39,008 bases of DNA from a virus: positions 1 through 39,008 of the IMG/VR virus record IMGVR_UViG_3300050821_008879, one strand, 5' to 3'. The notes beneath the pieces were generated by a model that was given only the letters and a program-made list of their open reading frames with translations, made no database searches and was not told the origin of the DNA. Positions 8,313-13,604 of this stretch are shown here, one piece after another; positions within the stretch are counted from its first letter, which is position 1; each line of letters opens with the position of its first letter. The position numbers and the translations under genes were made by a program.

Positions 8313-9164
8313 GTGCCTCCGATCATCCCCGACTCGGTGCCTTCGCATTTCCCTGCCGGAACGACTGTCCGTTTTACCCGCTCCCTTGATGATTACAGTT
8401 CGGCCGATGGCTGGACTTACACCATCTACCTGAACGGTCTCACCCAAAAATTCAATAAGGCCGCGTCCGTTCAGAACGACGGCCAGTTCCTCATCGAGCT
8501 ACTCCCCACGGACACCGAACCTCTCTCGCCTGGTCCCTACCGCTATTGCGAGCGCCTCTCGAATCCTGGGACGCGTTTCGTGCTCACCGGAGTCTCGACC
8601 GACGGCACGCACGCGACCTACGCCTATTCGTCCTTCACAGGCCCGGCTCCGTACATCGGCATGCCCGTCACGACGAGCGGATTCTCGAACAGCGGAAACA
8701 ATGTCTCCGTCGCCTCCGCGATAACCGCGATGGTGGAAGGTCCGAGTGGTACGTTCACGATCGCCAGCACCACGGCGGTCAATGAATCCTCGGCGGCAGC
8801 TGGAGCCGGGCCACAGCAAGTCTTCGACATTCGCGGCGACGAGCTGGTCATCAACATCGAGCCCGACGCCGCGAGTTCTCCCGCCGGCACGTTCCAGACG
8901 TTCGAGGAAAAGACGCTGGCGGTCCTCGAGGCAGCAATCGCCGGAAATCTTTCGGGCGGGATCCAGAGCTATCAAATCTCCGGGCGCGCGGTGAGCAAGT
9001 ACCAGATGGCGGAGCTCATGAAGCTGCGCGGCATGTTCCGTGCCGCGGTGTGGCGCCAGCAGAATCCCGGCAAGCTCGGCAAGCCCTACGAGGCCACGTT
9101 CACGACCGAGCAGGAAACGCCGTATCCGCCGACCTGGGTCGACGTCACGGGGATTGACCGATGA
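8313..9164 (+). CDS. Head-tail connector-type protein with gpW-like C-terminus and inserted domain
   Basis: 283 residues. It lies exactly where lambda gpW lies, between terminase and portal. The N-terminal beta domain (residues 1-85) and the C-terminal helices (about 195-255, with S-G-R-A-V-S-K-Y-Q-M-A-E-L-M-K-L-R) fit a common phage neck family whose C-terminus resembles gpW. Residues about 86-167 are an extra beta-rich module (Y-S-S-F-T-G-P-A-P, G-M-P-V-T, S-G-F-S-N-S-G-N-N, G-T-F-T, V-N-E). It recurs in the tail gene at 26784 and interrupts the normal fold between Y-R-Y-C-E-R and V-F-D-I-R-G-D-E-L. GTG 8313 has no strong ribosome binding site. The stop overlaps the portal start. Confidence 0.7.
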   Translation: MPPIIPDSVPSHFPAGTTVRFTRSLDDYSSADGWTYTIYLNGLTQKFNKAASVQNDGQFLIELLPTDTEPLSPGPYRYCERLSNPGTRFVLTGVSTDGTHATYAYSSFTGPAPYIGMPVTTSGFSNSGNNVSVASAITAMVEGPSGTFTIASTTAVNESSAAAGAGPQQVFDIRGDELVINIEPDAASSPAGTFQTFEEKTLAVLEAAIAGNLSGGIQSYQISGRAVSKYQMAELMKLRGMFRAAVWRQQNPGKLGKPYEATFTTEQETPYPPTWVDVTGIDR

Positions 9165-10726
9165 AACTCCCGCGCGCCATCCAGCGAATCGTGAATTTCG
9201 TCACCGGCAAGCGCAATCTCACCGTCTTCAACGGCGCATCCGGTTCGCGGCTCACAAACGACTGGGTCGTTTCCATCCTCTCGCCCGATCAGGAAATCAA
9301 GTCCAACATGCGGATCCTCCGCGCGCGCGCGCGTGAGCTGTCCCGCAACAATCCGATCGCCAAGAGCTACCTGAAGCTCCTGCTCGCGAACGTCCTCGGC
9401 GAGAAAGGCGTCGGCTACCAGGCGCAGGTCCGAAACAATAACGACGAGCTGAACAAGCCGTTCAACAAAAAAATCGAGACCGCCTGGCGCGAATGGTCGA
9501 AAAAAGGGAACTGCACGGTCGACGGAAAGGTTTCCTTCCGCGCGGTCCAGAACTTGGTGCTCAAGACCGTGGCCACGGACGGCGAGGCCTTCGTCCGCAT
9601 GGTTCCCGGGTTCAACAACAAATATCGTTTCGCGCTGCAGATGATCGACGCCGACCAGGTCGACCATCTGTTCAGCAGATTCCCGTCGAAGCAGGAGAAC
9701 GAGATTCGCCTGGGCATCGAGGTCGACGTCTGGGGAAAGCCCGTCGCCTACCACGTGAATCCGAAGCATCCCTCCGACCTCGGCGGGTCGCTTCTGCGCG
9801 AACGAATCCCGGCCGAGTACATCCTGCACCTCTACGATCCGGAGCGCGTGAATCAAACGCGCGGCGTCACCTGGTTTCACCCGGTCATGGTTGAGATGCG
9901 GATGCTCGGCGGCTACGTCGAAGCTGAGCTGGTCGCCGCGCGCGTCGGCGCCGCGAAGATCGGGTTCCTCGAATACGCGGACGCCTCCGCGTTCGAGGAG
10001 CCCAACAAAGACGCGAAGTACCAGATCGAGGCGAATCCCGGCGTGATCGAGCAGCTCCCTCCGGGAATGAAGTTCACGCAGTGGAATCCCGACCATCCGG
10101 CCGGCGCGTTCGAGATGTTCGTGAAGGCCATGCTGCGCTTCGTCGCCGGCGCTCTCGGCGTTTCCTACAACGCGCTCGCTGCCGATCTCCAAGGCGTCAA
10201 CTATTCCTCGATGCGCTCCGGGCTTTTGATCGAGCGCGATCAGTGGAAGATGACGCAGTCGATGATGAAAGAGGATTTCCTGCAGCCGATTTTCGAGAGC
10301 TGGATGTCGATGGCGCTGCTCTCCGGGCAGCTCGTTCTCGACTCGCGCGATCCATCGCGCTTCATGGAAGGGAAGTGGGAGGCCCGCGGCTGGCAGTGGG
10401 TCGACCCGCTCAAGGACGTGCAGGCTTCGATCCTCTCTGTCGGCGCCGGCTTCAATTCGCGCGACGCCATCATCGCGGAAAGCGGCGGCGACGTTTCGGA
10501 GATCTTCGAGCAGCTCGCCGAGGAGAAGGAAATCGCGGAGTCCTTCGGCCTGGAGTTCGACATCTCGGCGACGAAGCCGACCGTGCAGAAAGGTCCACAG
10601 GATCCCGTGACCGCGACGGACGAGGAGCCCGATGAGCCACAGGACGAAGTCGAGGCGGACGGGAAAGACAAAAAGTCGGCGGCCGCAGCCGGTAGGAATC
10701 TCGTTCCCATGAGGAGGGGCCAATGA
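9161..10726 (+). CDS. Portal protein, lambda gpB family
   Basis: The portal forms the 12-subunit ring at the head vertex through which DNA passes. The 521-residue product shows the lambda-type portal pattern: R-A-R-A-R-E-L-S-R-N-N-P-I-A-K-S-Y near residue 50, G-E-A-F-V-R-M, D-A-D-Q-V-D, the P-A-E-Y-I-L-H-L-Y loop, R-G-V-T-W-F-H-P-V, the wing/stem helices, and S-Y-N-A-L-A-A-D-L-Q-G-V-N-Y-S-S-M-R-S-G. The C-terminal tail is acidic then basic. It starts at ATG 9161, overlapping the previous stop, and its own stop overlaps the capsid fusion gene (ATGA). Confidence 0.95.
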   Translation: MKLPRAIQRIVNFVTGKRNLTVFNGASGSRLTNDWVVSILSPDQEIKSNMRILRARARELSRNNPIAKSYLKLLLANVLGEKGVGYQAQVRNNNDELNKPFNKKIETAWREWSKKGNCTVDGKVSFRAVQNLVLKTVATDGEAFVRMVPGFNNKYRFALQMIDADQVDHLFSRFPSKQENEIRLGIEVDVWGKPVAYHVNPKHPSDLGGSLLRERIPAEYILHLYDPERVNQTRGVTWFHPVMVEMRMLGGYVEAELVAARVGAAKIGFLEYADASAFEEPNKDAKYQIEANPGVIEQLPPGMKFTQWNPDHPAGAFEMFVKAMLRFVAGALGVSYNALAADLQGVNYSSMRSGLLIERDQWKMTQSMMKEDFLQPIFESWMSMALLSGQLVLDSRDPSRFMEGKWEARGWQWVDPLKDVQASILSVGAGFNSRDAIIAESGGDVSEIFEQLAEEKEIAESFGLEFDISATKPTVQKGPQDPVTATDEEPDEPQDEVEADGKDKKSAAAAGRNLVPMRRGQ

Positions 10727-12873
10727 ATCCGACCGAGCGCGCCAAGGAAAAACTCGGCACAGAACTCCCGATGCTGACGCGGGAGTTTCAAATCTTGGAG
10801 ATGACTCTAATCGCCAAGCGCGAGAAGAAAGTGCTCACCGCTGCGCAGACCGCCGAGCGGCTCGCAAAAATGGCACGCCGCAATGCGAGGAAAGCCGCCG
10901 GCGAAGAGCCCGATCCAGCCGACGACGAAGACGACGACGAGTCTGGCGAAAACTCCGACGACACCGGGAACGAAGGCAAGGAAGCGGCCGGCAAACGCGA
11001 CGAGGACCGCTTCGACATTTCGATTTCATCCGAGTACCCGGTCGAGCGCTGGTTCGGGAAGGAAATCCTGGATCACTCGGCGGACGCCGTGGATCTCTCG
11101 CGCGCCAAGAAGGGTCTCGCGTTCCTCGATTCGCACGATGCCAAGTCCATCGTCGGCGTCGTGGACAAGGTGAAGATCGGCGACGATAAAAAACTTCGCG
11201 GTGTGCTCCGTTTCTCACGGAGCGCGCCGGCGCAGCAAATCAAGACGGACATTCAGGACGGCATCCGTCGATTTATTTCTGTCGGCTACCAGGTCAACGA
11301 GTACACGCTGGAGAAGTCCTCGAAGGAAGAGGGCGACACCTACCGCGCGACCAAGTGGACACCGATGGAGGCGAGTTCGGTCGGCGTTCCCGCCGATCCG
11401 ACAGTGGGGCACGATCGCAAGGCCGAGGGCAGGCAGTATCCGGTCCTCGTTCGCAATGCAAATCCGGCTTCCGAGCCGAATCTCAAGGAGGTCACCGTGG
11501 AAATAGCAACGCAGGTTACAGACGCACGGACCGCCGCGGCTGAAATCATTCGGCTCGGCAAGGTTCACGGAATCGATCAGGAGCGGGTCGCCGAGGCCGT
11601 CACCGCGGGTCAAACCGTCGACGCATTCTCGCGCCTGGTGCTCGACGAGGTCGCCAAGCGCGGCGCGCGACCGATCACGCAACCGCCGGCCGAGGACCAG
11701 GAACGGCTCGCGCTCACCGAGAAAGAGCAGAAGGAATACAACCTCGCGCGCGGGATCATGACGGCCGTCACGAACATCGAGGCGGCGTCGAATGGGTCAG
11801 CGAACAAGCGCGAGAACTCTTTCGAGATGGAAATCTCGCAGGAGATCGAGAAGAACTGGAAGGGCACGCGGCACGGCGGTTTGTTTGTGCCGTGGAGCCT
11901 GCGTCACGCCTGGACGCCGGACCTCGCGAAAGCGTATCCGCACCAGCGGATGTCGCCGAAAATGCAAACGCGCGCCGGTCTCGATTCCGCAACGGCCACG
12001 GCCGGTCTCGAACTGAAATTCACCGAACCCGGTGAGTTCATTCAGTTCCTCTACAACCAAATGCGCGTCAAGGAACTCGGCGCGCGCACCATCGCGGGTC
12101 TCCGCGATAACGTGTCCTACCCGAAGCAGACCGGGAAAGCGACCGGCTCCTGGGTAGGTGAAAATCCGGGCTCCGACGTCGCCGATTCCGCGCTGACGCT
12201 CGGCTCCATCGCCAGCTCGCCTAAGACGTACCAGTCTTCCTCGAGCTATTCCCGCCAATTGCTCGCGCAGGCCGTCGTGGACGTTGACACCCTCGTCCGC
12301 GAAGATCTCGGTCGCGATCTCGCGCTCGCGATCGACAGCGTGGCCATCGTCGGCGGCGGTTCAAACCAGCCGACCGGAATCGTGGCCACGTCCGGCGTGC
12401 AGTCCTACGTGATGATTTCGGACTCCGGCAACGGCGGCGTTCCGGCGTGGGACGACATCGTCATCATGTCGGAAAAGCTCGAGGACGCGAACGCGGACCA
12501 GCTCGGCGATGGCGCCTGGCTGACCACGCCGGGTCTGAAGTCCTCCCTAAAGCGCATCGCGCGTTTGGGGAACACCATCGGTCTGCCGATCTGGGCCGAC
12601 GACAGCACGGTGGACGGCTACCGCGCGCGATCATCGAACCAGGTCACCAAGAATTCCACGAAGGGTTCGAGCGGCGCGACGCTGCACACGCTCATTCGCG
12701 GAATCTTCGAGACGATGGTGATCGGCATGTGGGGCAGCGGGTTCGAGCTGGTCGTGGACCCGTACCGCCTGAAGAAGCAGGGCATGATCGAACTCACGAC
12801 GTTCATGCTCACCGACGTTGTCCTGAAGTACCCCGTCGCCTTCGTTGTGGCGAAGTACGTAGCGACGACCTAG
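10723..12873 (+). CDS. Prohead protease / HK97-type major capsid protein fusion
   Basis: A single 716-residue frame joins two functions usually encoded separately. Residues about 95-230 are an HK97-type (U35/S78) prohead protease with the catalytic pair H138 (D-S-H-D) and S186 (R-F-I-S-V-G-Y). A 30-residue acidic linker precedes it (about 62-95). Residues about 260-365 look like a helical delta/scaffold region, and about 368-716 form the HK97-fold capsid protein (H-G-G-L-F-V-P-W, later the A-I-D-S-V-A-I-V-G-G-G-S-N-Q-P-T-G-I signature). The protease would cut scaffold from capsid after assembly. A strong internal ribosome binding site lies at 11485 with an in-frame GTG at 11497. Confidence 0.93.
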   Translation: MNPTERAKEKLGTELPMLTREFQILEMTLIAKREKKVLTAAQTAERLAKMARRNARKAAGEEPDPADDEDDDESGENSDDTGNEGKEAAGKRDEDRFDISISSEYPVERWFGKEILDHSADAVDLSRAKKGLAFLDSHDAKSIVGVVDKVKIGDDKKLRGVLRFSRSAPAQQIKTDIQDGIRRFISVGYQVNEYTLEKSSKEEGDTYRATKWTPMEASSVGVPADPTVGHDRKAEGRQYPVLVRNANPASEPNLKEVTVEIATQVTDARTAAAEIIRLGKVHGIDQERVAEAVTAGQTVDAFSRLVLDEVAKRGARPITQPPAEDQERLALTEKEQKEYNLARGIMTAVTNIEAASNGSANKRENSFEMEISQEIEKNWKGTRHGGLFVPWSLRHAWTPDLAKAYPHQRMSPKMQTRAGLDSATATAGLELKFTEPGEFIQFLYNQMRVKELGARTIAGLRDNVSYPKQTGKATGSWVGENPGSDVADSALTLGSIASSPKTYQSSSSYSRQLLAQAVVDVDTLVREDLGRDLALAIDSVAIVGGGSNQPTGIVATSGVQSYVMISDSGNGGVPAWDDIVIMSEKLEDANADQLGDGAWLTTPGLKSSLKRIARLGNTIGLPIWADDSTVDGYRARSSNQVTKNSTKGSSGATLHTLIRGIFETMVIGMWGSGFELVVDPYRLKKQGMIELTTFMLTDVVLKYPVAFVVAKYVATT
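11485..11499 (+). promoter_or_regulatory. Internal Shine-Dalgarno and in-frame GTG start inside capsid fusion
   Basis: AAGGAGGT (11485-11492) is a full-strength Shine-Dalgarno sequence, followed after 4 bases by GTG 11497, which is in frame and corresponds to residue 259. Initiation here would give a 458-residue product (scaffold/delta region plus capsid) without protease. The position, exactly at the protease-capsid boundary, supports function, as in lambda C/Nu3-type nested genes. Not proven. Confidence 0.6.
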
Positions 12874-13289: not shown

Positions 13290-13604
13290 ATGCCGAGGCC
13301 GTCCACAGCCGCTGCGTTCGGTAACGCCGATATCCCCGCGCTCATGGCGGACATGGGTATCGCGGTCACCGTCGGCGGCGTGGGCGGCGTCGGTCTTCTG
13401 GACGAGTCCGACGAGATCATCGTCCAGGACGCGCAACGCGGGCAGGTCGTGGTCATGGCCACGACGCTGACCGTTCAGACGTCCGCATTTCCGGCCGTGG
13501 CCATCGATGCGGCCGTCGTAATCGGCTCCAAGAATTTCACGGTTCGCGAACGCCTCCGGGTGGGCGATGGCGGGCTGACCAAGCTACTGCTCGGCACTGC
13601 CTAG
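13290..13604 (+). CDS. Head-tail joining protein, gpFII-like
   Basis: 104 residues. In lambda, FII closes the head and provides the tail-binding surface. The pattern fits: an N-terminal A-D-M-G-I-A-V-T-V helix/strand, the D-E-S-D-E loop, a central A-F-P-A-V-A-I-D-A-A-V-V-I-G strand and the ending F-T-V-R-E-R-L-R-V-G-D-G-G-L-T-K-L-L-L, all in the usual order and spacing. Its position between the capsid gene and the tail terminator agrees. Confidence 0.72.
   Translation: MPRPSTAAAFGNADIPALMADMGIAVTVGGVGGVGLLDESDEIIVQDAQRGQVVVMATTLTVQTSAFPAVAIDAAVVIGSKNFTVRERLRVGDGGLTKLLLGTA

Follow-up and report, generated by a model that had tools for sequence, protein, structure and literature searches.

Nested in-frame genes for protease and scaffold are a classical feature of phage head modules. 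In the C/Nu3 pair of lambda and the I/Z pair of Mu, the protease lies upstream, a protease-free product arises from an in-frame internal start and both products share their C-terminus; the inner product is scaffold only, the capsid protein being encoded by a separate gene. HK97 gp4 and gp5 provide an S78 protease, a delta scaffold and a capsid domain in that order, from separate protease and capsid genes; they build a T-number shell from which the protease removes itself. In Gifsy-2, protease, scaffold and capsid reportedly form a tripartite capsid gene in a single frame, with a ClpP-like (S14) protease. Fusions are thus of a known kind, and many cultivated phages carry a fused gene named major capsid protein. 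Here we describe a fused head gene in a 39 kb virus record (IMG/VR record IMGVR_UViG_3300050821_008879; the window hereafter refers to its whole stretch of 39,008 nucleotides). This open reading frame (ORF) combines an S78-type prohead protease, a scaffold and an HK97-fold capsid domain in 716 residues. It belongs to the same family as the "major head" and "major head and protease" proteins of PHROG 617/4523 (VP882, phiHAP-1, ep3, PPpW-3, R4C and S-CBS1/3), which have the same fused layout with a start codon at the protease/scaffold junction. Comparison of its relatives argues that this single gene very probably specifies two head proteins, the fusion and a protease-free scaffold–capsid protein of 458 residues initiated at an internal Shine–Dalgarno (SD) site.

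The original prediction placed a prohead protease (H138, S186) and an HK97-fold capsid in one frame, and both its coordinates and the frame proved exact. A Pfam search of the fused ORF returned the capsid family PF05065 at residues 446–711 (E 8e-29) and the protease family PF04586 at residues 112–227, the latter with 20.4 bits, slightly short of the curated cut-off of 21. PHROG 617 spans the fusion from residue 92 to residue 713 (E 4e-95, 602 positions), a single frame running, as in that family, through protease, scaffold and capsid. The catalytic His and Ser of an S78 protease are both present: among 77 aligned relatives, S186 (TCT, 11278–11280) is invariant and H138 (CAC, 11134–11136) is at least 90% conserved. 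The Pfam search did not find CLP_protease in the fused ORF, so that the window shares with Gifsy-2 the tripartite single frame and differs from it by having an S78-type instead of an S14 protease. ClpP-type fusions were also sought in phrog_10, which yielded separate capsid genes or broken frames and no usable fusion. Pfam and Foldseek agree on the HK97 fold of the capsid domain; the best Foldseek match in the PDB is the R4C capsid (8gta_A), followed by those of the gene transfer agent (GTA), D3 and HK97. Since 8gta_A, the mature R4C capsid protein of 268 residues, aligns with residues 436–701 and provides the best fold match, the mature shell protein should begin near residue 426.

We built an AlphaFold2 (AF2) model on the 77-row alignment, with a mean predicted local distance difference test (pLDDT) score of 80; it replaces a model based on 16 rows, with a pLDDT of 44. 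The protease domain adopts a beta fold, and protease and scaffold are separated by a single long disordered stretch, residues 234–261 (residues 146–173 of the model, pLDDT below 50). The first scaffold helix begins at residue 262 (model residue 174), so codon 259 lies at the end of the disordered linker, 3 residues ahead of this helix and at the domain boundary where the internal site had been predicted. More specifically, this site consists of AAGGAGGT (11485–11492), the spacer CACC and an in-frame GTG (11497–11499), the motif, the distance of 4 bases and the residue number being just as proposed. Its description as a perfect start is fair for the SD sequence and not for the GTG, a codon that as a rule initiates more weakly than ATG. 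With an SD pairing energy of −12.0 kcal/mol, the site is sixth among 28 predicted starts compared in the window. AAGGAGGT occurs twice in the window, with 0.71 occurrences expected; this count is by itself weak evidence, and the proof is comparative.

We collected 105 fused genes displaying 28–100% identity from IMG/VR, GTDB genomes and INPHARED phages, and defined a strict SD core as GGAGG, AGGAG or GAGGT located 3–14 bases upstream of a start. At the protease/scaffold junction, an ATG or GTG in frame is present in nearly all of these genes, and 75 of the 105 combine it with a strict SD core. Off the junction, strict SD–start pairs number 52 over 71,466 codons of the same genes, which amounts to 0.024 for a zone as large as the junction, so that the rate at the junction is about 30 times that observed elsewhere. 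Homologous boundaries lacking a ribosome binding site had been singled out beforehand as the observation that would speak against an internal start, and the idea survived this comparison. We also scored every internal in-frame start for anti-SD pairing. The junction provides the best SD–start pair of the whole gene in 61 of 90 representatives (5.25 expected), including 21 of the 39 that are less than 60% identical and 8 of the 14 that are less than 40% identical (0.79 expected). Phages R4C, VP882 and CRP-811 have the same layout with a junction start.

The pattern of conservation is that of a nucleotide signal. The SD core lies in codon phase 2, 0 or 1 in 82, 11 and 7 genes, respectively, and the residues encoded at the SD vary (LKEV, LKEG, LKED, TQEE, TTEE, EKGA); therefore, it is the nucleotides that are kept, not the peptide. 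The internal start codon, Val or Met, is spelled solely as GTG or ATG, and V259 is encoded by GTG in 25 of 25 close relatives, although GTG accounts for about one-third of the Val codons in these genes. Synonymous codon identity reaches 0.964 at codons 248–256, against 0.595 on average over the gene (sd 0.092); of the 703 stretches scored in this way, the 13 highest all fall in codons 244–264, where the gene-wide peak lies. SD and start codon are thus kept at synonymous sites, which the original prediction had proposed as a check. That an SD sequence and a start would meet by chance in a GC-rich coding region, a reading to which the double occurrence of AAGGAGGT in the window lends something, is scarcely credible, since it is contradicted by conservation over 105 genes in changing codon phases. 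In addition, none of the 105 fused genes has a stop interrupting the frame across the linker, a continuity that separate genes would not need, suggesting that the long and the short readings both appear to be under selection.

The cyanophages S-CBS1, S-CBS3 and S-LBS1 keep an ATG at the junction and have no SD, as expected because their hosts rely little on SD pairing. These phages also bear on the proposal that only the fusion is made and that the SD-like sequence is a programmed pause, giving the protease domain time to fold ahead of capsid translation. A slowing of ribosomes by SD-like sequences within genes has been suggested for domain boundaries, a disputed idea, and the AF2 model does locate the site at such a boundary. 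A pause, however, has no need for a start codon at initiation spacing, yet GTG or ATG is kept even where the SD is missing, and we consider this explanation very unlikely.

Internal initiation being favored, the relative strength of the two starts becomes relevant to the balance between products. In the window, the opening energy of the outer start region is 18.7 compared with 10.0 for the inner one, the outer start being far more folded. Across the family, the inner start is both stronger and more open than the outer start (median SD energies of −9.15 vs −7.0 kcal/mol and median opening energies of 8.3 vs 11.2), with the outer start taken as the best candidate by SD strength, a choice that favors the outer start. 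An excess of the short product over the fusion is plausible. Several observations weigh against internal initiation or against such an excess: (i) the outer SD of the window is as strong as the inner one (−12.8 vs −12.0 kcal/mol) and is followed by ATG; (ii) in the minimum-energy fold of the window RNA (11466–11493), the internal SD is bound by a CUUCC lying upstream of it, this pairing being an alternative to a small hairpin that leaves the SD free and being broken by the loops AACG, GCAG and GAAA of several relatives; (iii) the SD is weak or absent in about 30% of the relatives (e.g. Murka, Mano, Alexa and MQ-4); (iv) in one-third of the representatives, a start other than that at the boundary is the strongest; and (v) the P values of the best-pair scan ignore relatedness and are hence too small, the counts below 40% identity, which are independent of close relatives, being safer.

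The small hairpin, CGGCU-NNNN-AGCCG, stands 6 bases before the SD. In the 28 distinct sequences of the window clade, its stem is unchanged and its loop variable; the stem hardly varies, and no covariation was found in this clade. A sister subclade (L069/L062/L019) has a different, longer stem, in which 4 of 9 pairs are changed on both sides, indicating some covariation, and one member of this subclade, L026, folds with a z score of −4.25. A kept stem with a variable loop just ahead of the SD, together with the covariation in the sister subclade, would suit an origin of the short product mainly from a separate or processed mRNA with its 5′ end at the hairpin, generated by an internal promoter or an RNase cut, in place of direct internal initiation. 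We regard this as unlikely: the hairpin does not extend across the family, and its stability is nothing unusual in this GC-rich gene, lying, for the window clade, around the 15–20th percentile among hairpins of the gene itself. Its unremarkable stability and its absence from distant relatives also led us to reject it as a family-wide element; the general design does without it, although it may tune the internal site in the window clade.

Where does the internal start come from? It probably served first as the start of a then separate capsid gene and was retained when protease and capsid became joined by loss of the intervening stop, as three sets of comparisons suggest. First, L023 lacks a protease upstream of its capsid reading frame, which is preceded by the same hairpin, SD and GTG. 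Second, in the lactococcal phages c2 (l5), D4412, Q54 and GE1, a protease-like domain is fused to the capsid as in the window, with an SD and an ATG exactly between protease and scaffold; these genes are too diverged to be aligned with the window by sequence search, and their junctions were found by the same start scan. The c2 record annotates the mature N-terminus at codon 206, far downstream of the internal ATG at codon 131. Third, in Lactobacillus phage SA-C12 (L151, 24521–26710), protease–scaffold and capsid are fused through loss of an in-frame stop, and TTGGAGG and ATG are kept at the old capsid start; in its relatives Maenad and L152 (comparison loci including L161, 1081–3594), the in-frame stop is intact and is followed by a separate capsid gene. 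The contrast between SA-C12 and Maenad/L152 shows that a stop-loss fusion leaves the old start in place, which would also fit a site that is a non-working relic of the formerly separate gene. A relic should decay, yet the site persists below 40% identity under the strongest synonymous constraint of the gene, and this possibility strikes us as very improbable. As for L023 itself (1–360), the capsid frame starts right after the hairpin–SD–GTG unit and a breakpoint, and the sequence ahead of them is similar to part of a tRNA gene, although ARAGORN calls none; this edge may be that of a rearranged prophage or an assembly chimera.

If both starts are used in vivo, head assembly could proceed as follows. 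Ribosomes initiating at ATG 10723 would produce a few protease–scaffold–capsid subunits, and those initiating at the internal AAGGAGGT–GTG would produce the scaffold–capsid protein devoid of protease. Both products would co-assemble via their shared capsid domain, so that each prohead would contain some covalently tethered protease, most subunits being protease-free. Because the shared domain would itself hold the protease inside the shell, a separate targeting signal would be unneeded. After assembly, the protease would excise both its own domain and the scaffold, so that the capsid domain from about residue 426 on remains.

The features of the locus are listed in Table 1. The fused ORF is preceded by a portal gene (9161–10726, PF05136), the end of which overlaps its ATG, and has a lambda FII-like head–tail gene (13290–13604, PF05354) downstream. 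TTG 12966 is the probable start of the next gene after the fusion, preceded by AGGAGGTCAC, a ribosome site nearly identical to the internal one; for the ParB/methyltransferase gene, GTG 3145, preceded by GGAGGATTC, is the probable start in place of the listed TTG 3133.

Table 1. Positions of the observed and predicted features of the fused head gene in the window
Feature	Position	Strand	Basis
Fused protease–scaffold–capsid ORF, 716 residues (outer product)	10723–12873	+	Pfam, PHROG, AF2 model
Outer Shine–Dalgarno AGGAGG (start ATG 10723)	10712–10717	+	SD energy −12.8 kcal/mol, opening energy 18.7
Prohead protease domain, residues ~92–227	10996–11403	+	PF04586 below cut-off, PHROG 617, invariant residues, modelled beta fold
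Disordered linker between protease and scaffold, residues 234–261	11422–11505	+	pLDDT below 50
Small hairpin CGGCU-UCCG-AGCCG upstream of internal SD	11465–11478	+	Stem kept and loop variable in close relatives
Internal Shine–Dalgarno AAGGAGGT	11485–11492	+	Sequence and comparison
Internal start codon GTG, codon 259	11497–11499	+	GTG/ATG in nearly all relatives
Inner reading, predicted protease-free scaffold–capsid product, 458 residues	11497–12873	+	Comparative data
Helical scaffold (delta-like) domain, residues ~262–409	11506–11949	+	AF2 helices
HK97-fold capsid domain, residues ~435–716	12025–12870	+	PF05065; alignment with R4C 8gta_A

Additional capsid genes were observed in some relatives. 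In L091 (5964–7097), L092 (6130–7194), L106 (2088–3149), L107 (2608–3660) and L108 (4834–5886), a second, stand-alone capsid gene directly follows the fusion; it has neither protease nor scaffold and is 32–37% identical to the window capsid. The fused genes of these five loci keep the internal start, and the second gene may encode a second shell protein, e.g. for vertices. L025 (2546–3691) and L084–L088 (e.g. L086, 3863–5149) carry stand-alone capsid genes with 62–74% identity that lack the protease and most of the scaffold, and no second capsid gene was found in these records. The gene upstream in L025 resembles that of a small DNA-binding protein, and L086 contains a tape-measure-like gene and a tRNA-Leu; L025 and L084–L088 could be capsid-carrying satellites or decayed prophages.

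As the original prediction held, the arrangement is a nesting of the lambda C/Nu3 kind with the capsid itself in the inner product. At the protease boundary, the fused gene contains an internal in-frame start equipped with an SD of its own, and its two products, here predicted from sequence, would share their C-terminus like those of lambda and Mu. Unlike in lambda and Mu, the inner reading does not stop after the scaffold and continues through the capsid domain to 12873; unlike in HK97, which has the same domain order, protease and capsid are one gene. Nesting and fusion being already known, what is new here is nested in-frame genes whose inner product contains the capsid protein. The openly licensed literature searched yielded no description of an internal start for fused protease–capsid genes, although an earlier report is possible, and the way such genes solve their dosage problem is not addressed there. 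The internal start is unmarked in all 18 database records of fused head genes that we examined, and the R4C structure paper does not mention a protease.

A phage shell needs hundreds of capsid subunits and a limited dose of protease, to which a family-wide internal start would be a direct and cheap answer. R4C, with its solved virion, and c2, a dairy model phage, make the idea testable with existing phages. We would give an even chance to a broader proposal, namely that nested capsid starts are a general rule of protease–capsid fusions in tailed phages: stop-loss fusion would have occurred repeatedly, and only where the old capsid start was kept, as a shell made of fusion only would not assemble; fused "major capsid protein" genes, including those of c2 and R4C, would each specify a pair of head proteins, whose ratio a local hairpin would tune in some clades. 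If the family-wide internal start is used as predicted, many capsid entries in the databases hide a second gene product, and keeping an internal start would offer a simple route by which genes can fuse without losing independent dosage.

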